In this document: positions 6,221-57,869 of the stretch, piece by piece
How positions within the stretch are numbered: the first letter of the stretch is position 1
Layout: every line of letters begins with the position of its first letter
Source: Methylohalomonas lacus
GTDB lineage: Bacteria > Pseudomonadota > Gammaproteobacteria > Methylohalomonadales > Methylohalomonadaceae
Direction: 5' to 3'
Assembly (NCBI RefSeq): GCF_024808875.1
Contig: NZ_JANUCT010000004.1
Coordinates: forward strand, 1 to 64,000
DNA: 64,000 bases
Translations under genes and position numbers: made by a program
The notes under the pieces: generated by a model
What the model was told of the DNA's origin: nothing
The model's input: only the letters and a program-made list of their open reading frames with translations
Database searches by the model: none

Positions 6221-7078
6221 CTAGACTTCGTTCATGCCTTCGCCCTTGCCGCGCAGGTAGATGAAATAGTAGACGAGGGCGACGAAGCCGGCGCCGCCGA
6301 CGATGTTGCCCAGCGTGACCGGAACGAGATTATTGAAGAAGCCGGCGGCATTGAGATTCTGCAGATCGGCAGCCGTGTAGCCGGCCGCCTCAAGAATGGC
6401 CGGATCCTGCGCCGCGACAATGCCGATCGGAATCATGTACATGTTGGCGACGCAGTGCTCGAAGCCCATGGCAACGAAGCCGGAAATCGGAAACAGCACC
6501 GACAGGATCTTGTCGGTCACCGAGCGCGCGGCGGAACACATCCAGCTGGCCAGGCAGACCAGCGCGTTGCACAGCAGGCCGCGGGTGAACGCCTCGACGA
6601 AACTGTAGTCGACCTTGGCAACGGCGGACTGCACCGCCGTGGCGCCGACGGCATGATTGCCGGCCTCGAGGTAACCCGAGTAATAGACGAGCAGTACACT
6701 GGCAAAGGCGCCGATCGCGTTAGCGAAATAGACCAGTCCCCAGTTGCGCAGCAGGGCCTTGCTGGAGACCTGCTTGCCGGCCCAGGCCATGACAATCAGG
6801 TTGTTGCCGGTGAACAGTTCGGCGCCAGCGATAATCACCAGTATGAAGCCCAGTGAAAAGGCGATGCCGCCCAGCAGCCGGGCCGGGCCGTAGGCCGCCT
6901 CGACCTCGGTCATGACGACGGTGTAGTACATGGCGCCAAAGGCAATGAAGGCGCCGGCGATCAATGCCAGCGTGACAATCTGCAACGCTGGCATCGTCGC
7001 CTTGGAGACGCCGACCGTGCGCATGCGCGCGGCGACCTGGGGTGGTGAAAAGGCATCGAAAAACGATGGATCGGACAT
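6221..7078 (-). CDS. Formate/nitrite transporter family channel (FocA/NirC-like)
   Basis: I chose the ATG at 7078 (285 residues), since the 77 codons open upstream have no family character and AGGA precedes this ATG. The protein has six hydrophobic segments and the family landmarks AGAELFTGN, NWGLVYFANAIGA and FEHCVANMYMIPIG; the His in the FEHC loop is the conserved central histidine. It should form a pentameric inner-membrane channel for formate, nitrite or a similar small anion; the sequence alone does not fix which. An FNR-like box lies about 120 bp upstream, suggesting induction without oxygen. Confidence 0.88.
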   Translation of the reverse strand: MSDPSFFDAFSPPQVAARMRTVGVSKATMPALQIVTLALIAGAFIAFGAMYYTVVMTEVEAAYGPARLLGGIAFSLGFILVIIAGAELFTGNNLIVMAWAGKQVSSKALLRNWGLVYFANAIGAFASVLLVYYSGYLEAGNHAVGATAVQSAVAKVDYSFVEAFTRGLLCNALVCLASWMCSAARSVTDKILSVLFPISGFVAMGFEHCVANMYMIPIGIVAAQDPAILEAAGYTAADLQNLNAAGFFNNLVPVTLGNIVGGAGFVALVYYFIYLRGKGEGMNEV

Positions 7079-11769: not shown

Positions 11770-11950
11770 CAGAATTGCCTCGGGCCTTAACGGGAAGATT
11801 CCCAGCCCACCGGTTAGAGTATTAGAGAACCCGAATGCGGTCGGTGCGTTGGAGCGCTTAGGTCGATAGATGATTTTTACGGGGTATTATGCGGCAACCA
11901 AAGAGCAGACAAACTAACTGGGCAGGCTGGTTCAGGTATTAAAACAGGAC

Positions 11951-12128
11951 GTTCCACCGGCGGTGATCTGCGGTTTCCTGAAGCGACTGGCACAGATGCC
12001 GGCCCACTGGCGGTTTGTCAAAGGGGCGCAATTAGTTGATGCACTTCAGTGGTGAGGCTGAAACGATGGTGGATATCCGTGCCTGGCTGGAAGCGCCTGA
12101 TCGATCCCTGCCTCAGATGCTCAGCTGA
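11951..12128 (+). pseudogene. Decayed 3' fragment of an alpha/beta hydrolase like the one at 7293
   Basis: The DNA from about 11951 aligns to the last ~215 bases of the hydrolase at 8092-8306. Shared blocks include TGCGGTTTC, GCGACTGGCACAGA, ACTGGCGGTTTGTC and AAACGATGG.GGA.AT followed by GCCTGGCTG. Deletions and frame changes after GGTTTGTC destroy the frame, and no 5' part of the gene is present. It has the same orientation as the intact gene. The gap on its left (11770-11950) holds nothing I can recognise. Confidence 0.8.
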
Positions 12129-38509: not shown

Positions 38510-38539
38510 TTGACAGCCAGACAGTTAAATCCGTAATCT
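38510..38539 (+). promoter_or_regulatory. Promoter of the cobalamin operon leader
   Basis: A consensus -35 TTGACA (38510-38515) is separated by 18 bases from TAATCT (38534-38539). The predicted transcription start falls close to 38546, just before the first conserved element of riboswitch 1. Confidence 0.65.
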
Positions 38540-38548
38540 TGAAAAAGC

Positions 38549-38750
38549 TACAGGTGTTTTGGCTGTTTCCAGCAGCTGAAATGAAACGGGAAGCCGGTAC
38601 GCATTCGATGCCAGTCCGGCGCTGCCCCCGCAACGGTAGATGGTTGCGGTGAATTGTTTGCCACTGTCGACATTGTCGACGGGAAGGCGATTCGCTGCCG
38701 GTACCTGAAAATGGTACCAGACCATGAGCCCGGAGACCGGCCTGTCGCAA
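38549..38750 (+). promoter_or_regulatory. Cobalamin riboswitch 1
   Basis: The conserved core is complete and in order: CAGGTG at the 5' side, AAACGGGAA, a stem around GCCGG...CCGGC, GCTGCCCCCGCAACGGTA, the GCCACTG and GGGAAGGC blocks, and the B12 box GAGCCCGGAGACCGGCCTG near the 3' end (38726-38744). Adenosyl- or other cobalamin binding represses expression downstream. No run of T follows, so it may act on translation or on a Rho site rather than an intrinsic terminator. A second full copy follows 170 bases later. Confidence 0.93.
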
Positions 38751-38920
38751 GCAACAAGCGCATCGCGGAGGGCGGTGGCGGTTCAGGCTATCCTGCCAGC
38801 ATGTGTAACTGCACGTGTGTTCCCGCCTCGTTTTTGCATGACACTTCCGCCAATGTGGCTTTTGTCGTTTTTACAGGGCTGTTACCTGTACGGACGATAA
38901 CAATAATTCAAGCGTTTTAG
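38751..38920 (+). other. Spacer between the two riboswitches with a short Cys-rich ORF
   Basis: The 170-base spacer holds an ATG at 38801 opening a 39-codon frame, MCNCTCVPASFLHD, with a hydrophobic middle (ANVAFVVFTGLLPV) and a TAG at 38918. GGAGGG lies about 34 bases before the ATG, too far for a normal ribosome site. I do not recognise the peptide. It may be chance, a leader peptide, or the remnant of a gene once controlled by riboswitch 1. Confidence 0.3.
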
Positions 38921-41684: not shown

Positions 41685-44600
41685 GTGAATGCCCCGCAGG
41701 GCCATCCATGCTTTCGTCCCCGAACCCGGTCACGACTGACCGGGTCCGGCGGTCGCCTTGCGTCCGTAAAAAATGTCCTGCTTGGCCTGCTGATCGCGGG
41801 TTTCCTGCTGTTCGCCCAGAACCTGGCCGCCGCCTCACTGTTCGGCGTGGTATCGGAACGCTCGGCGTCGCTGCTTGCCGCCGGCGCCGGGCGCTTTCTC
41901 GATCAGTACCCGGATCATGAACTGGTACTGCGCAACACCCGGCAGGTGGCAGCGATGTCCGATGCCGAACTGCGCGAGCGGCTGGCCACGGCCGATAGCG
42001 TATTACTGGTCGGCGTGTTCGGTGACCAGGCCGTGCGCCTGGAAAAACTGCTGGCGTCGATGGACCGGCCGCCCGCGCGGCTGCTGGCCTTCAACGGCGA
42101 GCGCCGTCTGACCCGTCTGAGTCGCCTGCAGGGCGAGGCGATCATGGCGGATCTCAACGAGGCCGGCATGGATGCGCTGCATGACAAGGCGGAGCCCGGG
42201 CAGCCGGTTGCCGAGCACTTGCGGCAACAGCAGGAACGCTTTCCGCCGCTGGCCGGTTGGCTTGAGGCGCGCGCCTACTGGCAGGGCCGCGGCAGTGACA
42301 ATGCCGCCGGTCTGCTGGCATGGCTGCTGCAACCGTTCGCTGGCGACCTGAGCGTGCCCGAACCGGAACTGGCCGAAGCGGTACGCTATTACCATGACGG
42401 CAAGGTCAGCCCGACGCCGCCCGAGGCGGTGTTTGCCGCAGGTCAGCCGGTGGTTGCCGTGCTCGATCACGACACCGGCGATGTTGCCGGTCAGAACGCG
42501 CTCATGCAGGGACTCTGCGCGCAATTGCGGCAACGCGATCTGGGTTGTCTGGGCGTGATCGCGCGCTGGGGGGCGGCCAGTGCCGAGGCGCTGGAAACGT
42601 TGCCCGAGCGGCTGGGGCAGGGCCGCCTGGCCGCCGTGGTTTCACTGCAGGATTTCGTTATCGGCGGCAGCGAGGCGCGTGGCCGCGGTGACGCGGCACT
42701 CGAGGCACTGGACGTGCCGGTGATCAAGGGACTGCGGCTGACCGACCGGGATGCCGAGACCTGGCGGCTGTCCGACGACGGCCTGCCGGTCGACAGCGTG
42801 CATTACCGTCTGGCGATGCCGGAACTGCAGGGTATCGGCCAGGCCCAGGTTCTGGCGGTGCAGCAGCCGGCGCAGACCCAGCAGGCCACCGGCCTGCGCT
42901 ACGCCAGCATGACCACGCTACCGGCGGAGCTGCGCTCGATCTCCGAACGTGTGGCCAACTGGCAGACGCTGCGGCACAAGGCCAATCAAGACAAGCGCAT
43001 CGGTATCGTTTACTACAACCATCCGCCGGGCCGGCACAACATCGGCGCCGACAATCTCGACGTGCCGGAATCGCTGCTGACCATCCTGCGCGATCTGAAA
43101 GCCGCCGGTTACGACACCGGCGAGTTGCCGGACAACGCCGAAAGCCTGCTCGAGATGCTGCAGACGCGAGGCGTGAACCTGCCGGAAAACCGTGAGGCGC
43201 TGGCCGAAATGGCGGCCGCCACACCGCGGCTGCCACTCGAGCGTTACCGGCGCTGGTTCGAAAGTCTGCCCGCGCAGGTGCAGGGCGAGGTCAACCACGG
43301 TCCGCTGGGCTACCTGCACGACAGCCTGCGCCAGGCACTCGAGAATGCACGGCCGGAGCGCGGCCGCGAACTGCTCGAGCGCATGCATGCGGATCTCAAG
43401 CACATGCTCGCCGGGGTCGATCACCCGGCCCGCGACCGGGCGCGCGATCTGCTGGCGCAGCTGGTGGACGAATACCGGGCCCTGCTGGCGGGCGAGCACG
43501 CGGATTGGGCGCAGGCGGATCGGCTGCAGGCGGCGCTGCTCGATACCGGCATCGCCAGCCTCGATGGCTGGGGCGAGCCGCCGGGCGATATCATGGTGCA
43601 TGACGGCGAGTTCGTGCTGCCGGGGTTGCGCTTCGGCAAGGTATTTATCGGGCCGCAGCCGCCGCGCGGCTGGGAACGGCACGAGGAACTGCTGCACGCC
43701 AACCTGTCGTTCCCGCCGCCGCACCAGTACCTGGCCTGGTACCACTGGCTGCGCGCGGAATTTCGCGCCGATGCGCTGGTGCATCTCGGCCGGCACTCGA
43801 CCTACGAATTTCTGCCGCACAAGCACGTCGGCCTGACGCAGACCGACTACCCGCGCATCGTTATCGGCGATACGCCGGTGGTCTATCCGTACATTGTCGA
43901 CGGTGTCGGCGAGGGTCTGCAGGCCAAGCGCCGCGGCCTGGCGGTCATTGTTGATCACCTGACGCCGCCGCTGTCGGCGACGCCGCTGTACGACGATCTG
44001 CTGCAGCTGCGCCAGCAGATCGAAAGCTACGAGGCGGCCAGCGGCGACCAGGCCGAGGCCACGCGCAGCCGTGCCTTCCGGCAGATCCTCGACGGCGTGA
44101 AAAAGCTGGAACTGGAAACCGCCATCGAGCGCGAACTGCAGGCCGAATTCAACGACGACGACATCACGCTTGAGACCGTCGACGACGAAATGCTGGTGCA
44201 CGAGGTTGGCCATTACCTGACCGAGATGCAGGAAGACTTCATGCCGCACGGTCTGCACGTGTTCGGCCGGGACTGGGACGAACAGGCGCGCAGCATGATG
44301 CTCGAGTCGATGGCCGGTGACGGTGACATCGACCCGGACTGGCGCGCGGCCCTGGAACGTTCGCCCGGTGACGAGCGCGATTTCCTGCTGGCCGGGCTGG
44401 CCGGCCGTTACATACCGCCGGCCAAGGGCAATGACCCGGTGCGCACCCCCGATGTGTTGCCGACCGGGCGCAATTTCCACGGTTTGAATGGCGATCTGCT
44501 GCCGACTTCGGTCGGCTATGAACTCGGCCGCGACATGGCGCAGCAGGCCCGCAACGAGCAGCCGTCAGGCGAAACCGGTCAGGGTAGCGAGGCGGTGATC

Positions 44601-47288: not shown

Positions 47289-47618
47289 ATGCTGTCGCGT
47301 CGTCCCGGACAACGCCAGCGGCGCCTGCTGCAGAGTCGGTTCGACGACGACGATGCCGGTGGTGACGTGCCGTTCACGAATTTTCTCGACATCATGCTGG
47401 TATTCGCCTGCGGCCTGATCGCTGCGCTGGCTGCCAGCCAGGGTGAGCGCCAGCCGGCCCCGGAACTGTCACAACAGGCTGTGGAGAAGGGCCGCGAGTT
47501 GCCGGACATGCCGGACAGTGTCAGCGGCGAAGGTTCCGGCTACCAGCCGGTAGGCCGCGTCTACCGCGATCCGGAAACCGGGCGCATGATCATGATAGGA
47601 CAGGAAAAAGATGACTGA
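47289..47618 (+). CDS. DUF2149 protein, ExbD-like partner
   Basis: This 109-residue protein begins right after the previous stop. A basic N-terminus is followed by one membrane helix, VPFTNFLDIMLVFACGLIAAL, whose Asp at the helix start mirrors the proton-carrying Asp of ExbD (PFIDVMLVLL). The periplasmic tail ends with GYQPVGRVYRDPETGRMIMI, the DUF2149 hallmark. With the ExbB-like protein it should make a proton-motive-force motor that acts on the adjacent CobN-like protein. Its end overlaps cobO by eight bases. Confidence 0.82.
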   Translation: MLSRRPGQRQRRLLQSRFDDDDAGGDVPFTNFLDIMLVFACGLIAALAASQGERQPAPELSQQAVEKGRELPDMPDSVSGEGSGYQPVGRVYRDPETGRMIMIGQEKDD

Positions 47619-48222
47619 ACCGGAGATGACCGAAACCGAACGTCACAAGGCGCGCATGGCGCGCAAGAAGGCGATCGTCGATGAAAAGGTTAAAAAGGCC
47701 GACCAGAGCCGCGGCGTGGTCATCGTCCTGACCGGTGCCGGCAAGGGCAAGAGCTCATCGGCCTTCGGCATGGTGGCGCGGGCGCTCGGCCATGACATGA
47801 AAGTCGGCATCGTGCAGTTCATCAAGGGCAAGTTTGCCACCGGCGAGGAAGCCTTCTTCCGGCGCTTTCCGGAAGTCGAGTATCACGTCATGGGTGAAGG
47901 CTTTACCTGGGAGACGCAGGATCGCGAGCGGGATGAAGAAGCCGCGCGCGCCGCCTGGGACATTGCCCGGCAACAGCTCGCCAATCCGCAGCTGGCGATG
48001 GTGGTACTGGATGAACTGAACATCGTGCTCAAGTACAAGTACCTGTCGGTGGACGAGGTGATCGCGGCACTGACCGATCGGCCCGAGCATCAGCACGTCA
48101 TCATCACCGGCCGCAACGCGCCGCCGGACCTGATCGAGGTTGCCGATACGGTGACCGACAGCAAGCTGATCAAGCACGCCTTCAAGGCCGGCGTGAAGGC
48201 GCAGAAGGGCATCGAACTATGA
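47611..48222 (+). CDS. cobO: Cob(I)yrinic acid a,c-diamide adenosyltransferase, CobA/CobO type
   Basis: It transfers the adenosyl group of ATP to cobalt(I) corrinoids. The 203-residue protein has the P-loop TGAGKGKSSSAFG near residue 40, GIVQFIKGKFATGEE, MVVLDELNIVLKYKYL, and HVIITGRNAPPDLIEVADTVTD, all typical of the CobA/CobO family. The start overlaps the DUF2149 stop and the end overlaps cobB by four bases. A second, unrelated adenosyltransferase is encoded at the operon's end. Confidence 0.96.
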   Translation: MTEPEMTETERHKARMARKKAIVDEKVKKADQSRGVVIVLTGAGKGKSSSAFGMVARALGHDMKVGIVQFIKGKFATGEEAFFRRFPEVEYHVMGEGFTWETQDRERDEEAARAAWDIARQQLANPQLAMVVLDELNIVLKYKYLSVDEVIAALTDRPEHQHVIITGRNAPPDLIEVADTVTDSKLIKHAFKAGVKAQKGIEL

Positions 48223-49517
48223 CGGCGGCACGTTCCTGTCCGGCGTTGCTGATCGCCGCCCCGGCGTCCGGTCACGGCAAGACCACGGTGACCGCGGCGC
48301 TGGCGCGTTACCACCGCAATCAGGGTCGGCGTGTGCGCGTGTTCAAGGCCGGCCCGGATTTTCTCGACCCCATGATCCACGAGCGCGCCTCGGGTGCACC
48401 GGTGTACCAGCTCGATCTCTGGCTGGTCGGGGAAACCGCCTGCCGGCGGCTGCTGTACGAGGCCGCGGCCGACGCCGATCTGATCCTGGTCGAGGGCGTC
48501 ATGGGCCTGTTCGACGGCAACCCGTCCAGCGCCGATCTGGCGGCAAAGTTCGGTCTGCCGGTGCTGGCAGTGATCGACGCCCGCGCCATGGCGCAGACTT
48601 TCGGTGCGGTGGCGCTGGGTCTGGACCGCTACCGTGACGGCGTCCATGTCACCGGCGTGATCGCCAACCGCGTCGGCAGTCCGACCCACCGCGAGATGCT
48701 GACCGGGGCACTGCCGGATGGCATCGATTTCTACGGCAGCCTGCCGCGTGACGAGGCGATCACATTACCGGATCGCCACCTCGGCCTGGTGCAGGCCGAG
48801 GAGGTCGACGATCTCGATGCGCGCCTCGACGCCGCCGCCGACCAGCTCGGTCAGGACATGCAGGTGGAACTGCCGGCGGCGAGCGAATTCACGCTGGCAG
48901 CGGCCGAAGACACGACCAGTGGCCAGCCGCTGGCCGGCCGGTGCATTGCCGTTGCCCGCGATCGCGCCTTTGCCTTTGTCTACCGCGCCAATCTCGACTT
49001 GTTGACTGAACTCGGTGCCGAGCTTGTTTATTTTTCACCGCTGAACGGTGAGGACTTGCCGCCGGCTGATGCCGTCTACCTGCCCGGCGGTTACCCGGAA
49101 CTGCATGTCGACGCACTGGCGGCGAACGAATCGCTGAAGCAGGCGCTGGCCGATCACCATGCCGCCGGCAAGCCGCTGGTCGCCGAGTGTGGTGGCATGC
49201 TGTACCTGCTCGAGTCATTGACCGACAAACACGGTACGGCCGCGGCCATGGCCGGTCTGCTGCCGGGGACCGCGGTCATGCAGGAACGCCTGACGGCGCT
49301 GGCGCTGCAGTCGGTGACACTGCCGGAAGGCACCCTGCGCGGTCATACCTTCCACCATTCGCGCATGGACTCGCCGCTCGAAGCCATTGCCCGCGGCGAA
49401 TGCCCGAACCGCCGGCGCGCAGCCGAGGCCGTCTACCGCGACGGCCGCCTGACCGCCAGCTATATTCATTTCTATCTGCCGTCGAACCCGGCTGCCGCCG
49501 CGGCGATGTTTCAGTAA
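48219..49517 (+). CDS. cobB: Cobyrinate a,c-diamide synthase
   Basis: The enzyme amidates the a and c side chains using glutamine and ATP. The 432-residue protein has an N-terminal dethiobiotin-synthetase-like P-loop (IAAPASGHGKTTVTAAL), EGVMGLFDG, and a C-terminal class I glutaminase-like domain with the nucleophile in AECGGMLYL and GHTFHHS near the end. Length is normal for CobB/CbiA. It overlaps cobO (ATGA). Confidence 0.95.
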   Translation: MTAARSCPALLIAAPASGHGKTTVTAALARYHRNQGRRVRVFKAGPDFLDPMIHERASGAPVYQLDLWLVGETACRRLLYEAAADADLILVEGVMGLFDGNPSSADLAAKFGLPVLAVIDARAMAQTFGAVALGLDRYRDGVHVTGVIANRVGSPTHREMLTGALPDGIDFYGSLPRDEAITLPDRHLGLVQAEEVDDLDARLDAAADQLGQDMQVELPAASEFTLAAAEDTTSGQPLAGRCIAVARDRAFAFVYRANLDLLTELGAELVYFSPLNGEDLPPADAVYLPGGYPELHVDALAANESLKQALADHHAAGKPLVAECGGMLYLLESLTDKHGTAAAMAGLLPGTAVMQERLTALALQSVTLPEGTLRGHTFHHSRMDSPLEAIARGECPNRRRAAEAVYRDGRLTASYIHFYLPSNPAAAAAMFQ

Positions 49518-49530
49518 TGCACACACGATC

Positions 49531-50220
49531 ATGAGCGAACACGACAGTCCGCATCGCTACGCTGGCGCCGAGCGCGAGGCCATTTACAAGGTCATCGCCG
49601 AGCGCCGTGACATGCGCCACTTCCGGCCGGATCCGGTCGACGAGGCGACCCTGTCGCGGGTGCTTGAGACTGCCTACCAGGCGCCCAGCGTCGGCCTGAT
49701 GCAGCCGTGGCGCCTGATCCGGATCACGACCGTGGCATTGCGCGATGCCATTCATGCCATGGTCGACCGCGAACGCCGCAAGACGGCCATGGCACTGGAC
49801 GAGCGCCAGGAGGAATTCATGCGCCTGAAGGTCGAGGGCATCAGACAGTGCGGCGAGTTGTGGGTGATGGCGCTGGCCGACGGCCGCGAGGAACACGTGT
49901 TCGGCCGCCGCACTATGCCGGAGATGGATCTTGCCTCGACCGCCTGTGCCATCCAGAACCTGTGGCTGGCGGCACGCGCCGAGGGTCTGGGGCTGGGCTG
50001 GGTGTCGCTGTTCGAGCCGCTGGAACTGGCGAAATTGTTGAAAATGCCGGCCGACGCACGGCCGGTAGCCGTTCTTTGCATCGGCCATGTCGACGCGTTC
50101 TACCCGGTGCCGATGCTGGTGCAGGAGCGCTGGACCGAGCCGCGGCCGCTGGCCGAGATGGTGTTCAGTGACTACTGGGGCGAGGGCGCCGCGGCCGTGA
50201 CCGGAGCACTCAGCGAATGA
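49531..50220 (+). CDS. bluB: 5,6-dimethylbenzimidazole synthase
   Basis: BluB breaks down reduced FMN with oxygen to form the lower ligand of cobalamin. The 229-residue protein is a nitroreductase-fold enzyme with RRDMRHFRPDPVDEATLSRVLETAYQAPSVGLMQPWRLI near the start and LASTACAIQNLWLAARAEGLGLGWVSLFEP in the middle, both close to the BluB signature. Its presence implies oxygen-exposed growth at least part of the time. It lies 13 bases after cobB. Confidence 0.94.
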   Translation: MSEHDSPHRYAGAEREAIYKVIAERRDMRHFRPDPVDEATLSRVLETAYQAPSVGLMQPWRLIRITTVALRDAIHAMVDRERRKTAMALDERQEEFMRLKVEGIRQCGELWVMALADGREEHVFGRRTMPEMDLASTACAIQNLWLAARAEGLGLGWVSLFEPLELAKLLKMPADARPVAVLCIGHVDAFYPVPMLVQERWTEPRPLAEMVFSDYWGEGAAAVTGALSE

Positions 50221-51014
50221 CCGACGAGCGTCGCGGGCCACAGCGCATTGTCTGCCTGACCGAGGAAACCACCGAGACGATTTATCGGCTCGGCGAACAG
50301 CATCGTATCGTCGGTATATCCGGTTTTACCCAGCGGCCGAAAGAGGCGCGCAAGGAAAAGCCGAAGATATCAACCTTTCGCAATGCCAAGGTCGACTCGA
50401 TCCTTGAGCTCAAGCCCGACATGGTGCTGGGTTTTTCCCACATCCAGGCCGACATCGCCGCGGAACTGGTGCGTGCCGGTCTCGACGTGCATATCTTCAA
50501 TTATCGTTCGGTCGCCGGCATCTTCGAGATGATCCGGTTCCTCGGCGCATTGCTGGATTGCGCCGACAAGGCCGACATTCTGGAAAGGGAACTGCATCAG
50601 GGACTGGATGCCATCCGTGCGGCCGCCGAAAAACTGCCGCGGCGGCCGCGGGTGTATTTCGAGGAATGGAACGACCCGCTGATCTCCTGTGTCGGCTGGG
50701 TGTCGGAATTGATCGAGCTGGCCGGCGGCGATCATTGCTTCCGCGAACTGGCATCCGGCCGCAACGCGAAACAGCGGCGTATCGAGGATCCGGCAATGGT
50801 CATCGAGCGGGCCCCTGAACTGATTCTCGCTTCCTGGTGCGGCAAGCGTTTCAAGCCGGAGGATCTGTATTCACGACCGGGCTGGAAGGCGATTCCCGCG
50901 GTGGCCAACGGCCAGGTCTATGAGATCAATTCCAGCGACATCCTGCAGCCGGGACCGGCGGCACTGACCGATGGTGTGGCCCGGATCCATGACCTGATCC
51001 GGCGCTGCGTTTAA
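50217..51014 (+). CDS. BtuF-like cobalamin-binding protein without signal peptide
   Basis: The 265-residue protein has the class III periplasmic-binding fold of BtuF: QRIVCLTEETTETIYRLGEQHRIVGISGF at the start, LELKPDMVLGFSHIQADIAAELVRAGL, and GGDHCFRELASG later. The N-terminus is hydrophilic (MTDERRGPQ) and no upstream frame offers a signal peptide, because the gene overlaps bluB (ATGA). BtuC and BtuD genes are absent. It is therefore probably cytoplasmic, perhaps a corrinoid chaperone or carrier rather than an uptake protein. Confidence 0.82.
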   Translation: MTDERRGPQRIVCLTEETTETIYRLGEQHRIVGISGFTQRPKEARKEKPKISTFRNAKVDSILELKPDMVLGFSHIQADIAAELVRAGLDVHIFNYRSVAGIFEMIRFLGALLDCADKADILERELHQGLDAIRAAAEKLPRRPRVYFEEWNDPLISCVGWVSELIELAGGDHCFRELASGRNAKQRRIEDPAMVIERAPELILASWCGKRFKPEDLYSRPGWKAIPAVANGQVYEINSSDILQPGPAALTDGVARIHDLIRRCV

Positions 51015-51018
51015 AACC

Positions 51019-51921
51019 ATGCTGATAACGCTGGCGCTGCTTGTTGCCGTATTGCTGGATCGCTGGCTGGGCGAACCGCGGCGCTGGCATCCGCTGAACG
51101 GTTTCGCCGCCGTGGCGCGCTGGCTGGAGGGGCGTCTCTACGGTGGCCGGCTGCGCGGTGGGCTCGCAGTTGTATTATTGATTGTGCCGCCGGCCGTGCT
51201 GTTCGCCTGGCTGGGGGCGCAGGGCATGGCCGGCTGGTTGATCGGTATCACGGTGCTGTATATCGCGATCGGCTGGCGCAGCCTGATCGATCATGCCGTC
51301 GCGGTGCGGCGGGCACTGGATGCCGCCGATCCCGAAACGGCGCGCCGCTGCACCGGCTATCTGGTCGGTCGCGACACCGGCGCCATGGACGAGACGCAAA
51401 TGGCCGGCGCGACGCTGGAGTCGGTACTCGAAAACGGCAACGACGCGCTGTTTGCGGCGATCTTCTGGTTCGTCGTCGCCGGTCCCGGCGGCGTCGTGGC
51501 CTACCGGCTGGCCAACACCCTGGACGCGCTCTGGGGTTACCGCAACGATCGCTATCGCGACTTCGGCTGGGCGGCGGCACGGCTGGACGATGTGCTGAAT
51601 TTCATCCCGGCGCGGCTGACCGCGCTCGGCTACATGCTCTGCGGTCGCGCCCTGCACCATTTCTACCGTATTGCGCAGCAGGCGCAGGCCTGGCCGAGCA
51701 GCAACGCCGGCTGGGTGATGGCCGCCGGCGGCTGTGCGCTGCAAAGGCAACTGGGTGGCAGCGTCAGCTACCAGGGTGTGGCGCACGAGCGGCCGCCGCT
51801 GGGCACGGGCGCCAGGCCGGAAGCTGCGGATATCGGTCGCGGTCTGCGGCTGGTCCGCAACACGCTGATCCTGTGGCTGGCGGTCATTGGCGCCGGCGCC
51901 TGGGTGCTGACCCATGCTTGA
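51019..51921 (+). CDS. cbiB: Adenosylcobinamide-phosphate synthase
   Basis: This membrane enzyme (CbiB, also called CobD) attaches aminopropanol phosphate to adenosylcobyric acid. The 300-residue protein shows VAVLLDRWLGEPRRWHPLNGFAAVARWLEGRLYGG, ATLESVLENGNDALFAAIFWFVVAGPGGVVAYRLANTLDALWGYRN and DDVLNFIPARLTALGYML, all family landmarks, with four to five helices. The end overlaps the next gene by eight bases. Confidence 0.94.
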   Translation: MLITLALLVAVLLDRWLGEPRRWHPLNGFAAVARWLEGRLYGGRLRGGLAVVLLIVPPAVLFAWLGAQGMAGWLIGITVLYIAIGWRSLIDHAVAVRRALDAADPETARRCTGYLVGRDTGAMDETQMAGATLESVLENGNDALFAAIFWFVVAGPGGVVAYRLANTLDALWGYRNDRYRDFGWAAARLDDVLNFIPARLTALGYMLCGRALHHFYRIAQQAQAWPSSNAGWVMAAGGCALQRQLGGSVSYQGVAHERPPLGTGARPEAADIGRGLRLVRNTLILWLAVIGAGAWVLTHA

Positions 51922-52903
51922 GCACGGCGGCCAGTTGCAAAGCGCCACGACGCGCTTCGGCATCGCCGCCGGGGACTGGCTGGATCTGTCGACCGGCATC
52001 AACCCGCAGGGCTGGCCGGTGCCGGCAATCGACCCGCAGCACTGGCAGCGCCTGCCGGAAGCGGAGGATGGCCTGGAAGCTGCCGCGCGCGCGTATTATC
52101 AATGTCCGCAGATACTGCCGACCGCCGGCAGCCAGGCCGCCATCCAGGCGCTGCCGCGCTTGCGCGGCCACAGCCGGGTCGGTGTGCTGGACCCGGACTA
52201 CAGCGAGCACGCCCACGCCTGGCGCCGCGCCGGTCACACGGTTGTCGGCCTGCAGGCCGCCGATATCGGCCGGCCGCAGGCGGACCTGGACGTACTGGTG
52301 CTCAGCAACCCGAACAACCCGACCGGCGGCGAGCTGGATCCGGCACTGTTGCGCGCGCGGCGGGCGGAACTCGCCGGGCGCGGCGGCTGGCTGGTGGTCG
52401 ACGAGGCGTTTCGCGATGCCAGCCCGGCGGCGAGCTTGATCAGCGAAACCGATCAAGCGGGCCTGATCGTGCTGCGTTCGCTGGGCAAGTTCTTCGGCCT
52501 CGCCGGCGCCCGGGTCGGCTTCGCCGCTGCCACACCGGATCGGCTCGACGCACTGCGCGAGTGGCTGGGTCCGTGGCCATTGAGCGGGCCGGCGCGGGTC
52601 GTGGCACAACAAGCACTGCGGGATACCGAGTGGCAGCAATGCACGCGTGAATATCTGGCGCGGGAGAGCGAGCACTTGAATGATTTGTTAAGCCAGGCAG
52701 GGTTGGTGCCCAGCGGTGGCTGTCCACTGTTTCAGTGGCTGGCGTATAACGACGCCGCGAACATTCACGAACAACTGGCCCGCCAGGGCGTGCTGGTACG
52801 GCTGTTCACGCGGCCGCCGGGCCTGCGTTTCGGCCTGCCGGGCGACGCGGCAGGCTGGCGGCGCCTCGAAGCGGCGCTGGCGCAGCTGGAGGTGAACGCA
52901 TGA
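51914..52903 (+). CDS. cobD: Threonine-phosphate decarboxylase
   Basis: The PLP enzyme makes aminopropanol phosphate for the nucleotide loop (Salmonella CobD, Pseudomonas CobC). The 329-residue protein has [14 protein letters not shown] near residue 16, [28 protein letters not shown], and the PLP lysine in [17 protein letters not shown]. It follows cbiB with an overlap and overlaps cobQ (ATGA), so the two nucleotide-loop steps are coded side by side. Confidence 0.93.
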
Positions 52904-54375
52904 ACCGGACGCTGATGGTGCAGGGCACGACCTCGGATGCCGGCAAGAGCGCGCTGGTCACCGGTCTCGGCCGCTGGCTGTGGCGCCAGGGCATTAGCGT
53001 GGCGCCGTTCAAGCCGCAGAACATGGCGCTGAACAGCGCCGTCACCGCCGACGGCGGCGAGATCGGCCGCGCCCAGGCGCTGCAGGCCGCCGCCTGCGGT
53101 ATCGAGCCGCACACCGATCACAACCCGGTGCTGCTGAAACCGAACAGCGATCGCGGTGCGCAGGTGATCATCCAGGGCCACGCCGTCGGCAACATGGAAG
53201 CGCTGGCATACAGCGACTACAAGCAGACCGCCCAGGTGGCGGTGCTGGATTCCTACCGGCGGCTGGCGCGTGAGTACGATGTCGTCTTGGTGGAAGGCGC
53301 CGGCAGTCCGGCCGAGATCAACCTGCGCACCAACGACATCGCCAACATGGGTTTCGCCGAGGCGGTCGAATGCCCGGTATTGCTGATCGCCGACATTGAT
53401 CGCGGCGGCGTATTCGCACACCTGGTCGGCACGCTGGCGTTACTCAGCGACAGTGAACGCCAGCGGGTGCGCGGTTTCGTCATCAACCGTTTCCGCGGCG
53501 ACCCGGCGCTGCTGCAATCCGGGCTCGACTGGCTGGAAAACGAGACCGGCACGCCGGTCGTCGGCGTGCTGCCGTACCTGCAGGGCCTGCACCTGGACGC
53601 CGAGGATGCGCTCAACCGTCACGATGGCCGCAGCGACGACGCGGCCCTGCGGGTGGTGGTGCCGGCGCTGCCGCGCATCAGCAACCACACCGATTTCGAC
53701 CCGCTGCGCCTGCACCCGCAGGTCGACCTGTACTACGTCGGCCCGGGCGAGACGCCGCCGCCGGCCGATGTCGTCATCCTGCCGGGGTCGAAGTCGGTGC
53801 GCGCCGACCGCGACTGGCTCGCGGCGCAGGGCTGGGACGTGTATCTGCGGCGGCATCTGCGTTACGGCGGCAAACTGATCGGCATCTGCGGCGGCTTCCA
53901 GATGCTCGGCCGGCAGCTGCACGATCCCGATGGCGTCGAGGGTGCGGCCGGCAGCAGCGCCGGGCTGGCGTTGCTGGATATTGAGACCGTGCTGGCGCCG
54001 GACAAGCAGCTGCGCAATGTCCGCGGCCGGCTCGCCATGGCGGCGACGCCTCTGCAGGGCTACGAGATCCACGCCGGCGTAACCACCGGCCCGGCGCTCG
54101 AGTCACCGGCGGTCTTGCTGGACGACGGTCGCAGCGACGGTGCTGTCAGCGATGACGGCCAGGTGTTCGGCACCTACCTGCACGGCCTGTTCGACGCCGC
54201 GGAAACCTGCCGTGCGCTGCTGGTCTGGGCCGGACTGGAAGGCGCTGAGGGTGACGACCATGCCGGCCGCCGCGAGGCCGGTATCGACGCCATGGCCGAC
54301 GCGGTCGCGGCGCATCTCGACCCGGCCTGGCTGCACAAACACCTGCTCGATAGCCGCGCGGAGACCGTATCATGA
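52900..54375 (+). CDS. cobQ: Cobyric acid synthase
   Basis: CobQ amidates four side chains (b, d, e, g) of adenosylcobyrinic acid a,c-diamide. The 491-residue protein starts with [22 protein letters not shown], continues [29 protein letters not shown], and has the glutaminase site [12 protein letters not shown] near residue 330 and a HGLFD end motif. Length is normal. It overlaps genes at both ends. Confidence 0.96.
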
Positions 54376-54890
54376 GAGAACTCATCCTCGGCGGCGTGAA
54401 ATCCGGCAAGAGCCGCTACGCCGAACAGCAGGCCGCCGCCAGCGGCCTGGCAGTGTGCTACGTCGCCACCGCCGAGATCCGCGACGCCGGCATGCAGGCG
54501 CGGATTGCCGAGCACCGGGCGCGGCGGCCGGCCGATTGGCAGCTGGTCGAGGCGCCGTACGAACTGGCCGCTGCTATCGACGCCCACGCCGGTGCCGATC
54601 GCTGTCTGCTGGTCGACTGCCTGACCCTGTGGCTGACCCAGCTGCTGTGCCGCGATGACGAGGCGACATTCCAGCAGCAGCGAGATCTGCTGCTGGCGAG
54701 CCTGACGCGCAGCGCCGGTCGCGTGCTGCTGGTCAGCAACGAGGTCGGCGGCGGGGTGATGCCGGACAACGCCCTGGCGCGGCGCTTCGCCGACGAGGCC
54801 GGCAGCCTGCACCAGGCACTGGCCGAGCGCTGCGAGCGGGTCACCATGGTGACGGCAGGATTGCCTTATTATTTGAAGAATAATCAATAA
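54372..54890 (+). CDS. cobU: Adenosylcobinamide kinase/GTP:adenosylcobinamide-phosphate guanylyltransferase
   Basis: The bifunctional enzyme (CobU/CobP) activates adenosylcobinamide with GTP. The 172-residue protein has the P-loop [18 protein letters not shown] at the N-terminus, [25 protein letters not shown] with the guanylylated His, [14 protein letters not shown] and [11 protein letters not shown]. Length is normal. It overlaps cobQ (ATGA). Confidence 0.95.
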
Positions 54891-54903
54891 TTTAAAATAT
54901 ATT

Positions 54904-55965
54904 ATGAATGTAGAACATGAATTCTGGCGCACGCCCGCCGCGGCCCCGGACGCGGCCTGGCGCGAACGCGCCCGGGCGCGCCAGGACGAGCTGACCAAGC
55001 CGGCCGGTTCGCTCGGCCGGCTGGAGGAGCTGGCGATCTTCATGGCCGCCGCGCAGGGATGCGATCGCCCCGCGGTCGAGCGGGTGAACATTGCCGTGTT
55101 CGTCGCCGACCACGGCATCGCCGCCGCGGGTGTGTCGGCGTTTCCGCAGGCGGTGACGGTGCAGATGATCAGCAACCTGGCACATGGCGGCGCGGCGATC
55201 AGCGTGCTGGCGAAGCAGCTCGCCGCGGACATGGAGATCATCAACCTGGGCACGGCTGTTGCGGCGCCGGCGCTGGTCAACGTGCGCGATGCGGTGATTG
55301 CCGCGGGCACGGCCAGTTTCCTGCACGGACCGGCGATGACCGCGGCGCAGTACCGGCAGGCGCTGGCCGCCGGTCGCGACGCGGCGGCGCGCGCGCAGGC
55401 GGCCGGCTGTCAGCTGTTCATCGGCGGCGAGGTCGGTATCGCCAATACCACCGCGGCGGCGGCCGTTGCCTGCGCGCTACTGGATGAGGCGCCGGTGCGC
55501 CTGGCCGGTCCCGGTACGGGCCTCGACCGCGACGGTCTGCAGCACAAGGTTGATGTGCTGGAGCAGGCATTGGCCCAGCACCGCGATGCGCTGGTCGATG
55601 CTGATGCGATCCTGCAGTATCTGGGCGGCTTTGAGATCGTCGCCCTGACCGGCGCCTACGTTCACTGCGCGCAGCAGGGCCTGCCGGTGCTGATCGACGG
55701 TTACATCAGCAGCATTGCGGCGCTGGCCGCCGCCCGGCTGTGCGCCGGTGCCGATCACTGGTTCCTATATGGCCACAATTCCGCCGAGCCGGGCCATGCG
55801 CGCGTGTTGGCGACGCTGGCCGGCCGGCCGCTGCTGGACCTGGACATGCGGCTGGGCGAGGGCAGTGGGGCGGCGACGGCCGTGCCGCTGTTGCGGCTCG
55901 CCTGCGCGCTGCATAACGACATGGCGACATTCGCCGAGGCGGAAATCGCCGGGCGTTGCGATTGA
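54904..55965 (+). CDS. cobT: Nicotinate-nucleotide--dimethylbenzimidazole phosphoribosyltransferase
   Basis: CobT forms alpha-ribazole phosphate from dimethylbenzimidazole and nicotinate mononucleotide. The 353-residue protein has KPAGSLGRLEELAIFMA near residue 35, VFVADHGIAAAGVSAFPQAVT, FIGGEVGIANTTAAAAV, and the C-terminal LDLDMRLGEGSGAATAVPLL with the catalytic Glu. The gene follows a short AT-rich gap (54891-54903) and overlaps cobC by ten bases. Confidence 0.96.
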   Translation: MNVEHEFWRTPAAAPDAAWRERARARQDELTKPAGSLGRLEELAIFMAAAQGCDRPAVERVNIAVFVADHGIAAAGVSAFPQAVTVQMISNLAHGGAAISVLAKQLAADMEIINLGTAVAAPALVNVRDAVIAAGTASFLHGPAMTAAQYRQALAAGRDAAARAQAAGCQLFIGGEVGIANTTAAAAVACALLDEAPVRLAGPGTGLDRDGLQHKVDVLEQALAQHRDALVDADAILQYLGGFEIVALTGAYVHCAQQGLPVLIDGYISSIAALAAARLCAGADHWFLYGHNSAEPGHARVLATLAGRPLLDLDMRLGEGSGAATAVPLLRLACALHNDMATFAEAEIAGRCD

Positions 55966-56537
55966 TGGCGATAGCATCGGCTATTCAGTTACTGCGCCAC
56001 GGCGAGACCGCGGCCGGCCAGGCGTTCATCGGCAGTAGCGACGTCGCGCTGACGGCACGCGGCTGGCAGCAGATGCATTCTGCTGTTAGCGATGTCACCT
56101 GTGATCGCATCATCAGTTCGCCGCTGCAGCGCTGCGCCGCCTTCGCCGAAACGCTGGCGGCGGCGCGCGGCGTGCCGGTGCTGTATGAACCGCGCTGGTG
56201 CGAGCTCGACTTCGGTGCCTGGGAAGGGCGCACAGCGGCCGAGTTGATGCAGACCGAGGCCGCCGCCCTGCAGGAGTTGTGGGCGCGGCCGGAGGCATTC
56301 GTCGCGCCGGCGGGCGAGGCGGTGGCCGCGTTTCGCCGCCGCGTGCTGGCGGCCTGGGCCGAGCATGGCCGGGCCGACGCCGGCCGCACGCTGGTGGTTA
56401 CCCATGGCGGCGTCATTCGCGTGTTGCTGGCGGCGCTGTACCCGGATCACTACGCCTCGATCATGCACATCGACGTACCGCACGGCTCGGTACATGCGCT
56501 GGCCGGGGCGGCGCCGGCGGTGGAGCGCCCGGCATGA
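55956..56537 (+). CDS. cobC: Alpha-ribazole phosphatase
   Basis: This histidine phosphatase removes phosphate from alpha-ribazole phosphate. The 193-residue protein has the active-site LLRHGETAAGQAFIG near residue 9, ISSPLQRCAAFAETLA, ELDFGAWEGRTAAEL, and the second His in VTHGGVIRVLLAAL. Its place between cobT and cobS supports this function over a general phosphoglycerate mutase role. Confidence 0.88.
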   Translation: MRLMAIASAIQLLRHGETAAGQAFIGSSDVALTARGWQQMHSAVSDVTCDRIISSPLQRCAAFAETLAAARGVPVLYEPRWCELDFGAWEGRTAAELMQTEAAALQELWARPEAFVAPAGEAVAAFRRRVLAAWAEHGRADAGRTLVVTHGGVIRVLLAALYPDHYASIMHIDVPHGSVHALAGAAPAVERPA

Positions 56538-57289
56538 GGCGGGTGATCGTTTATCTGCAGCCGTTGCTCGTGGCCCTGCAGTTTCTGACCATCCTGCCCG
56601 TGCGCGTCAACAACGCCGACTATTCGCGGGCGCTGCGGCAGTCGCTGCTGTATTACCCGCTGGTGGGCGTGCTGCTCGGCGCGCTGCTGGCGGCGGTCGC
56701 CTGGCTGGGCAGCGGCGTCGCGGCCAATCTGCTGGCAGCCATGGTTCTGACCGTGTGGGTGCTGCTGACCGGTGCCCTGCACCTGGACGGTCTGGCCGAT
56801 ACGGCCGACGCCTGGGTGGGCGGTCACGGCGATCGCGAACGCACGCTGGCGATCATGAAGGACGCCGCCAGCGGCCCGGTCGCGGTCAGCGCGGTGGTGC
56901 TCTGCCTGCTGTGGAAATACGCCGGTCTCGGCGTCCTGCTGGCCGGCTCAGAATGGCTGCTGATCGTCATGCTGCCGGTGTTCGCGCGGCTGGCGGTGAT
57001 GGCGGCGATCGTCAGCGCGCCCTATGTGCGCGCCACCGGACTCGGCAGCGTGCTGGCCAGTGCGACGCCGGTCTGGCAGGTGTGGCTGACGCTGGCGGCA
57101 AGCCTGCTGGTTCTGCTCGCCCTGGCGCCGTTGCCGGTGCTGGCCGCTTCGCTGGTCACGGCCGCACTGACACTGCTATTCATCGTACTCGCCAAACGCC
57201 GACTCGGCGGCATGACCGGCGACGTGTATGGTGCCCTCATCGAGATCGTCGAAGCGGCCGTAATACTGGCCTTCGTCTTATTCATTTAA
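56534..57289 (+). CDS. cobS: Adenosylcobinamide-GDP ribazoletransferase (cobalamin synthase)
   Basis: CobS joins adenosylcobinamide-GDP and alpha-ribazole in the membrane, the last assembly step. From the ATG overlapping the cobC stop (ATGA) there are 251 residues. Landmarks: LLVALQFLTILPV near residue 10, GALHLDGLADTADAWVGGHGDRERTLAIMKDAASGPVAV near residue 80, and RRLGGMTGDVYGALIEIVEAAVILA near the end. Six or more helices are visible. Confidence 0.95.
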   Translation: MRRVIVYLQPLLVALQFLTILPVRVNNADYSRALRQSLLYYPLVGVLLGALLAAVAWLGSGVAANLLAAMVLTVWVLLTGALHLDGLADTADAWVGGHGDRERTLAIMKDAASGPVAVSAVVLCLLWKYAGLGVLLAGSEWLLIVMLPVFARLAVMAAIVSAPYVRATGLGSVLASATPVWQVWLTLAASLLVLLALAPLPVLAASLVTAALTLLFIVLAKRRLGGMTGDVYGALIEIVEAAVILAFVLFI

Positions 57290-57308
57290 ATACCGGATCA
57301 CTGAAACC

Positions 57309-57869
57309 ATGGCCAAACGACTGACCAAGATATTCACCCGCACCGGCGACGGCGGCGAAACCGGCCTGGCCGATGGGACGCGCCTGCCCAAGGACAGCGA
57401 TCGCATCGAGGCGATGGGCACGGTCGACGAACTCAATTCGCATGTCGGCGTGTTGCGCAGTTGCGCATTGCCGGAAGCACTCGACGCGGAATTGACGGAC
57501 GTGCAGCAGCGGCTTTTCGACATTGGCGGTGAAATGGCATTGCCGGATCAGGCGATGATCCAGGCCGAGCATGTCGAACAACTGGAGACACTGCTGGAGA
57601 AGTACAATGCCAGCCTGCCGCCACTGAAGGAGTTCATTCTGCCCGGCGGCGGGGTTGCCGCGGCCCAGTGTCACCTGGTGCGTGCCGTCTGCCGGCGTGC
57701 GGAACGCGATCTCTGGCGGCTGTCGCGGCAGGCGACGGTTAACCCGTTGACGCTGGGCTGGCTGAACCGCTTATCCGATCTGTTTTTCGTCTATGCGCGC
57801 ATGCTGGCACGGCTGGATAACGCCGAGGAAGTGCAGTGGCGGCATGAGGCACCGGACAGCGATCAATGA
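57309..57869 (+). CDS. Corrinoid adenosyltransferase, PduO type
   Basis: The 186-residue protein begins with the PduO ATP-binding stretch IFTRTGDGGETGLADGTRLPKDSDRIEAMGTVDELNSHVGVLR. It ends with the helical corrinoid site containing VRAVCRRAERDLWRLS and LNRLSDLFFVYARML. It is unrelated in fold to CobO, so the operon encodes two enzymes for the same adenosylation. It closes the plus-strand cobalamin operon; its stop lies only seven bases from the convergent protease gene. Confidence 0.95.
   Translation: MAKRLTKIFTRTGDGGETGLADGTRLPKDSDRIEAMGTVDELNSHVGVLRSCALPEALDAELTDVQQRLFDIGGEMALPDQAMIQAEHVEQLETLLEKYNASLPPLKEFILPGGGVAAAQCHLVRAVCRRAERDLWRLSRQATVNPLTLGWLNRLSDLFFVYARMLARLDNAEEVQWRHEAPDSDQ

Follow-up and report, generated by a model that had tools for sequence, protein, structure and literature searches.

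We analysed the first 64,000 nucleotides of contig NZ_JANUCT010000004.1 of Methylohalomonas lacus (hereafter the window), where a B12 salvage cluster includes three genes that encode a CobN-like chelatase, an ExbB/TolQ/MotA-like motor subunit and a DUF2149 protein. The conservation of this gene trio exceeds chance, and its spread is far wider than the window. In our preferred reading, to which we give a probability of roughly 45%, the three proteins form one machine, a periplasmic chelatase that would be driven by a proton motor and would act on scavenged corrinoids under the control of the B12 riboswitch.

Anchored CobN and its putative motor pair

A search of genome contigs with the window CobN sequence returned 50 loci, of which 48, found through CobN alone, contain all three genes; the remaining two match the window CobN at a mere 27–29% identity. 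Together with the window itself and eight loci from a survey of the class, these 48 loci make up 57 cassettes, and the cobN-exbB-DUF2149 order, which the first-pass annotation had suggested comparing across genomes, is identical in all 57, as is the strand. Hosts include Ectothiorhodospiraceae, Pseudomonas, Stutzerimonas, Azotobacter, Methylophaga, Methylophilaceae, Steroidobacter, Nitrospinota and Nitrospirota, among others.

The window CobN scored 835.9 bits against the Pfam CobN-Mg_chel model (cut-off 24.5) and stayed below the cut-offs of all nine NCBIfam CobN equivalog models listed (best 597.3 bits, with 1619 needed). Its translation probably starts at the GTG at 41766, and the N-terminal segment VKNVLLGLLIAGFLLFAQNLAAA (residues 28–50), which is signal-like and ends in an AxA site, reads as a Sec-type signal, while the C-terminal helix closes with LRGRSAGGRHV; both ends had been recognised in the first-pass annotation. 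Using hydropathy and motif rules of our own making rather than a dedicated predictor, we found that 46 of the 49 recognisable N-termini among the 57 anchored CobNs are signal-peptide-like and AxA-ended. A hydrophobic segment followed by a net positive tail closes the last CobN open reading frame (ORF) of the locus in 56 of 57 cassettes at a self-set hydropathy cut of 0.9, and in 51 of 57 at a cut of 1.3. The weakest C-terminal segments belong to Nitrospinota, and in the sole exception, L052, the helix is legible in a different frame. Two ordinary CobNs returned by the same search (L072 and L073) have neither signal nor anchor. A signal-like N-terminus combined with a C-terminal helix and positive tail predicts an N-out/C-in tail and thus a periplasmic CobN body, so that the placement proposed in the first-pass annotation is supported by sequence.

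Residues of the chelatase core are retained in these proteins. H700, H704 and E708 are conserved in more than 95% of 81 aligned CobNs, including the anchored clade, which carries the signature HxGRHSTYEFLP with S705 in 54/54 anchored proteins, in contrast to Gly in 20/20 classical ones. A quick CobN tree placed the anchored and divergent proteins on one side and the classical proteins on the other; the six divergent CobNs long enough to be included, together with that of Trichlorobacter (Geobacter) lovleyi, form a clade beside the anchored one. The divergent anchored group (L074–L081) has strong DUF2149 and ExbB-like matches, and in seven of its eight loci a TonB-receptor match as well.

Among 274 genomes sampled from the window's class, presumably Gammaproteobacteria, CobN and DUF2149 also travel together: CobN is present in 34 and DUF2149 in 17, every one of the latter with a CobN (divergent, by score, in eight). 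Leaving out G075, whose CobN is an N-terminal fragment, and G190, which is cut by a contig end, the C-terminal CobN helix is present in 16/16 assessable proteins from genomes with DUF2149 and in 0/16 from those without (Fisher 3.3e-9), an association that is not phylogenetically independent, being largely one split of the tree. The only independent case of loss of helix and pair, a single event on a long branch, is the plasmid-borne CobN of Marinobacter M3C (L097:6944-11146), which nests in the anchored clade and keeps the signal while lacking the C-terminal helix; the surrounding 18 kb show no ExbB-like or DUF2149 gene, whether by annotation or by motif. Plasmid records with a CobN match numbered 159, of which five were inspected, two of these unannotated. 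One unannotated record, a Pseudoalteromonas plasmid (L098), has a DUF2149-like motif beside the CobN match at about position 6323 on the + strand.

In the window, cobN overlaps the ExbB-like gene, as first described: the ATG of the latter at 46165 creates an 8 bp overlap that includes the cobN stop codon (46170-46172). The encoded protein matched Pfam MotA_ExbB (PF01618) with 39.1 bits (cut-off 22.9), and its AlphaFold model has a predicted local distance difference test score (pLDDT) of 91.8. A Foldseek search with this model returned ExbB or TolQ in all of its top 44 rows (probability 1.00, best E 0.022, none below 0.001), while a second structure aligner placed CorA chains on top at Z 11.7 and ExbB/TolQ at 10.9 or lower, in a range that the tool flags for helical bundles. 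The stator residues P78, G81, T85 and F112 are invariant in 29/29 ExbB-like proteins. The Pfam match and the predicted three-helix fold place the protein with the MotA/TolQ/ExbB stators, as a putative proton conductor.

A DUF2149 protein does follow, as the first-pass annotation had stated, only not directly, because a CbiE-like gene that it had left unmentioned lies in between; more than 450 bases separate the ExbB and DUF2149 stop codons only in the window and in L024 among the 57 cassettes. Asp34 of DUF2149 is invariant in 33/33 proteins and sits in the one confident helix of the model (residues 27–51, pLDDT about 90 there and 66.9 for the whole). DUF2149 is best described as ExbD-like in layout, rather than as an ExbD.

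Corrinoid control and the host genomes

Corrinoids as the class of substrate, as first proposed, are favoured by the control of the trio and by the B12 genes of its hosts. Scanning 41 of the 57 cassette loci with Rfam, we found a cobalamin riboswitch in 36, lying directly above cobN in 23 and, in the other 13, above a same-strand run of genes into cobN that we infer to be an operon. In many of the 23 direct cases, for example in Azotobacter vinelandii, Stutzerimonas and Methylophaga, the trio stands without any other B12 gene detected nearby. The scan gave no riboswitch in L026 and L069, both of which are cut by a contig end. L082 and L083 are related cassettes with neither a cobalamin riboswitch nor B12 neighbours detected; in L083 a thiamine pyrophosphate riboswitch follows DUF2149 (11846-11976). 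Zinc (Zur) control was rejected as the general mode, as the best box scores in the 400 bp above cobN fell within the range of shuffled controls. Stronger single Zur-like matches occur within 3 kb, a length for which there is no control, for example in L036 (19/23 letters), where a cobalamin riboswitch lies directly upstream.

Gene content was compared across 36 genomes with an anchored CobN. CbiC had no match in 33 of them, the window genome included, and the loci of the three that have it also carry CbiD, a marker of early cobalt insertion. All 36 have a CobQ-level match (150–204 bits) and about 28 a CobB-level match; the late genes from CobB onward fit an incomplete corrin entering the pathway. 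The anchored CobN is the sole CobN in 32 genomes (exceptions G279, G284, G295 and G300). CobT exceeds its cut-off in ten, convincingly only in G295 (220.8 bits; 27.8–97 bits in the other nine). In the window genome (38 contigs, 99% complete) no CobS/CobT pair was found, which extends to the whole assembly what had first been noted for the window: the lone CobT match reaches 19.4 bits, below cut-off, and the adjoining AAA gene 20.9 bits against CobS, where 558.55 are needed. At the level of sequence, CobN is linked to ExbB and DUF2149 rather than to CobST, as the first-pass annotation held. TP_methylase matches in the window genome number three, namely the CbiE-like protein of the cassette and frames of 502 and 301 aa, presumably CysG and RsmI, and the genome appears to be without a ring-synthesis pathway that would feed a classical CobNST.

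Within the class sample, 9/9 cassette genomes fall among the 78 that are CobQ-positive (best E below 1e-42, a self-set cut, with a model that spans CobB and CobQ; hypergeometric 8.7e-6). Of the Azotobacter hosts, A. vinelandii is predicted, in a passage of PMC4465626, to be a B12 salvager and not a maker, and A. chroococcum DSM 2286 also carries the anchored trio (L030).

Weighing the roles of the trio

In the reading that we prefer, a CobN-type chelatase would be exported and held at the periplasmic face by its C-terminal helix, where a minimal dedicated proton motor, consisting of the ExbB-like stator and of DUF2149 with its proton-binding Asp, would work it. Corrinoid shortage would switch the trio on through the B12 riboswitch; CobN would act on corrin rings delivered to the periplasm by BtuB, before their import by BtuM or BtuCDF, and CobB, CobO, CobQ and later enzymes would then complete the cofactor. 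We infer complex formation, proton coupling and the order of these steps, as well as the reaction; most likely, scavenged corrins would have cobalt inserted or their metal exchanged. A narrower proposal, in which the motor would take the place of the ATP-driven CobS/CobT ring and, outside the cytoplasm, power the insertion of cobalt into scavenged metal-free corrins, is tentative and distinctly less probable.

Several observations weigh against a motor-driven periplasmic chelatase, in addition to the receptor and TonB neighbours described below. The predicted N-out/C-in anchor of CobN is the reverse of the TonB/TolA orientation. Outside its helix, the DUF2149 model is of low confidence, with only a short pair of strands close to the C-terminus. 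The first-pass annotation had held that the DUF2149 helix motif NFLDIMLVFA mirrors ExbD; the Asp residues do align locally, over 25 columns, but the profile-profile (hhalign) probability is 4.7%, and a PDB sequence search likewise left a proven homology of DUF2149 to ExbD unsupported. Three uncut loci (L048, L082 and L083) have no riboswitch within reach in the Rfam scan. No clear CobB was present in 8/36 genomes, and several of the 36 are drafts or metagenome-assembled genomes, so that absences count for less. Finally, the cassette is absent from 45/51 class genomes that are CobQ-positive and CbiC-negative, which rules out that every late-pathway salvager needs the trio.

The strongest of the rival explanations, less probable than the preferred one and itself unlikely, couples the motor to CobN as a binding protein that would hand periplasmic corrinoids to BtuM or BtuCDF, proton flow driving their release. 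A passage of PMC12583661 notes that class I chelatases, in their head and neck, distantly resemble periplasmic binding proteins, and BtuM is described in PMC6072759, in the portion seen, as independent of an energy-coupling factor (ECF) module, its energy source left open, and as using Cys80 as cobalt ligand. In the window, and likewise in Methylophilaceae loci, a BtuM-like gene adjoins the trio. Its product in the window, putatively named BtuM (41112-41684), has no Pfam or NCBIfam match; it aligns with PDB 8c7p ('Cobalamin ABC transporter', E 6.6e-19), which we take to be a BtuM, with Cys80 paired with a Cys. Against a hand-off role, residues in the core motifs that mark chelatases are retained by the anchored clade, and a substitute importer seems unnecessary: a FecCD-type permease is encoded in 35/36 genomes, and the window genome also carries BtuC-, BtuF- and, as we presume, BtuD-like genes on another contig (L146), apparently giving it two corrinoid import routes, BtuM-like and BtuCDF-like. 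On the same grounds, the trio was rejected as a general BtuCDF substitute.

Less likely still, the ExbB-like and DUF2149 proteins would together energise the outer-membrane receptor via TonB, with CobN only an operon companion. This is how the literature, in the parts available, has assigned such pairs: for HmuU/HmuV in PMC12583661, for PA1924 in PMC4542158, and for T. lovleyi in PMC3403914, which treats the cluster as one for transport and assigns no definite role to CobN. The HmuS precedent invoked in the first-pass annotation is real (PMC12583661, PMC10434189), but the former paper gives HmuU and HmuV to the TonB receptor. In our cassettes, single-query searches placed a BtuB-like receptor no more than 3 kb away and on the same strand in 22/57, and a TonB-like gene near 2/57; the gene in L084 also matched Pfam TonB_C (60.8 bits). 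Five observations nevertheless argue that the pair works CobN rather than the receptor. An ordinary ExbD is already present in 36/36 genomes; of the 48 cassettes whose upstream DNA extends for 6 kb or more, 24 show no receptor within that distance (one query, with misses possible); in T. lovleyi an ordinary ExbB-ExbD-TonB set directly follows DUF2162-ExbB-DUF2149-CobN; the C-terminal CobN helix tracks DUF2149; and the Marinobacter CobN, which has lost the helix, has surroundings without the pair.

About as improbable, or slightly more so, is a de-chelatase that would strip the metal from corrinoids as HmuS does for haem, releasing cobalt for use or removing a wrong metal. HmuS is the best solved-structure match of the window CobN (361.5 bits), barely ahead of CobN (357.3 bits), and ExbB and DUF2149 genes are common to Bacteroidota hmu operons (PMC10434189, in part). 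The HmuS motif HFG(T/A)HG reads HLGRHST in the window CobN, so both motif-1 His residues are retained, but the second motif, LSLDHxxEFMGG, reads DNNDAFDYLGG in the window and in 47/54 anchored proteins, and its His occurs in 0/54. Stripping cobalt from good corrinoids is also disfavoured by the B12-riboswitch control, under which their destruction would make little sense. Very improbable is the last rival, in which the hydrophobic ends would deceive and CobN would be a plain cytoplasmic subunit left over in a salvager. Nothing beyond the general possibility speaks for it, and against it stand the AxA-ended signal-like N-termini, the anchor-like C-termini and the lack of any such tail in the 16 assessable CobNs from DUF2149-free genomes.

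The trio has close counterparts among known systems and is a variant of the HmuS/BtuS kind that belongs to the corrinoid regulon. With HmuS/BtuS and HmuT-U-V of Bacteroidota it shares the signal peptide, terminal membrane helices, CobN-like body, ExbB-like and DUF2149 genes and a TonB receptor, as far as the passages seen of PMC12583661, PMC13227078, PMC10434189 and PMC6460266 describe them, whereas haem and iron there are replaced in the window by cobalamin riboswitches, BtuB-like and BtuM-like proteins and late B12 genes, and the second motif differs as above. BtuS is regarded as a third CobN type and traced to Rodionov 2003 in a passage of PMC6460266. According to a passage of PMC13227078, Hmu-type partners are not encoded in CobN operons; for the anchored clade, the loci described here show the contrary.

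PA1922–PA1925 of Pseudomonas aeruginosa likewise has a TonB receptor, a CobN-like protein, an ExbB/ExbD-like protein and DUF2149 in a row, but it belongs to the Zur regulon and is repressed by zinc (PMC9431628 and PMC4542158, in the parts seen); the present cassettes have no convincing Zur-like box directly above them. The cobN-exbBD-tonB cluster of T. lovleyi plasmid pSZ77 is similar in having CobN with ExbB-like and DUF2149 proteins near B12 genes, and differs in its extra DUF2162 and ordinary ExbB-ExbD-TonB set and in a CobN of the divergent clade. Its DUF2162 membrane protein (L095:6852-7553), beside ExbB-DUF2149-CobN, is a possible HmuT counterpart. The classical late-cobalt CobN of Azotobacter chroococcum NCIMB 8003 pAcX50f has the CobN/Mg-chelatase domain and 31% identity to the window CobN; unlike the latter, it has no signal or anchor, has AAA and VWA genes as neighbours in a cluster for ring synthesis and falls in another clade. 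Across the titles, abstract openings and passages searched, we found neither a proposal that such a pair drives a chelatase nor a description of a riboswitch-controlled trio.

Cluster layout and wider meaning

The cluster runs along the + strand from two riboswitches through the BtuB-like, BtuM-like, CobN, ExbB-like, CbiE-like and DUF2149 genes to CobO and onward (Table 1).

Table 1. Coordinates of the B12 salvage cluster and its features in the window
Feature	Position	Strand	Basis
Cobalamin riboswitch 1	38535..38759	+	Rfam RF00174, 98.1 bits
Cobalamin riboswitch 2	38903..39140	+	Rfam RF00174, 109.5 bits
btuB-like TonB-dependent receptor	39216..41084	+	Pfam TonB barrel and Plug
btuM-like inner-membrane protein, single Cys80	41112..41684	+	PDB 8c7p match
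Anchored CobN-like class I chelatase	41685..46172	+	Pfam CobN 835.9 bits; ORF of 1495 aa
Predicted CobN signal peptide, residues 28–50, AxA end	41766..41834	+	Hydropathy and motif rules
Predicted CobN C-terminal transmembrane helix, residues 1467–1485, followed by positive tail	46083..46139	+	Hydropathy
ExbB/TolQ/MotA-like motor subunit (putative)	46165..46620	+	Pfam MotA_ExbB; AlphaFold; Foldseek
Orphan CbiE-like methyltransferase within cassette	46617..47288	+	Pfam TP_methylase, 73.2 bits
DUF2149, proposed ExbD-like partner	47289..47618	+	PF09919, 33.1 bits, cut-off 27.1
Predicted DUF2149 transmembrane helix with Asp34 (codon 47388-47390)	47367..47441	+	Model helix 27–51
Late B12 genes cobO, cobB, bluB, BtuF-like without signal, cbiB, cobD, cobQ	47611..54375	+	ORFs, families
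cobU, cobT (dimethylbenzimidazole (DMB) phosphoribosyltransferase), cobC, cobS (cobalamin synthase), pduO-type adenosyltransferase	54372..57869	+	ORFs

The riboswitches form a tandem pair (38535-39140) upstream of btuB, whose translation more probably begins at the Met at 39216 than at the ORF opening at 39036 within the riboswitch. Among the late genes, cobT and pduO were assigned by NCBIfam; cobD is a presumptive name, as are cobU, cobC and cobS, these three assigned from motifs. Two kinds of corrinoid adenosyltransferase are encoded in this one cluster, a CobO type (47611-48222) and a PduO type (57309-57869). The ORF of the BtuF-like protein (50217-51014) encodes no signal peptide; BtuF-like matches are present in many B12-type loci among relatives.

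The CbiE-like protein reaches 266.8 bits against NF004457 (cut-off 302). The same subfamily appears in two Nitrospinota B12 clusters, at L065:11863-12522 (209.9 bits) and L068:11341-12000 (215.1 bits), both also below 302. CbiC was not found in the window genome or in the L065 genome, each of which has an orphan CbiE-like gene.

If our preferred reading is true, the trio would be a proton-driven stator with an enzyme as its output, which is absent from the literature that we found. It would also constitute an unrecognised first step in many B12 scavengers, and would explain why the same pair occurs in HmuS operons and in the zinc-repressed PA1922-25 operon. Under the narrower proposal of motor-driven cobalt insertion, metal chemistry would be a new kind of output for the motor family of TonB, Tol, Mot and Zor, and the trio a new riboswitch-controlled route of B12 salvage. 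The trio also warns against taking an annotated cobN on its own as evidence that cobalt is inserted when B12 is made de novo.

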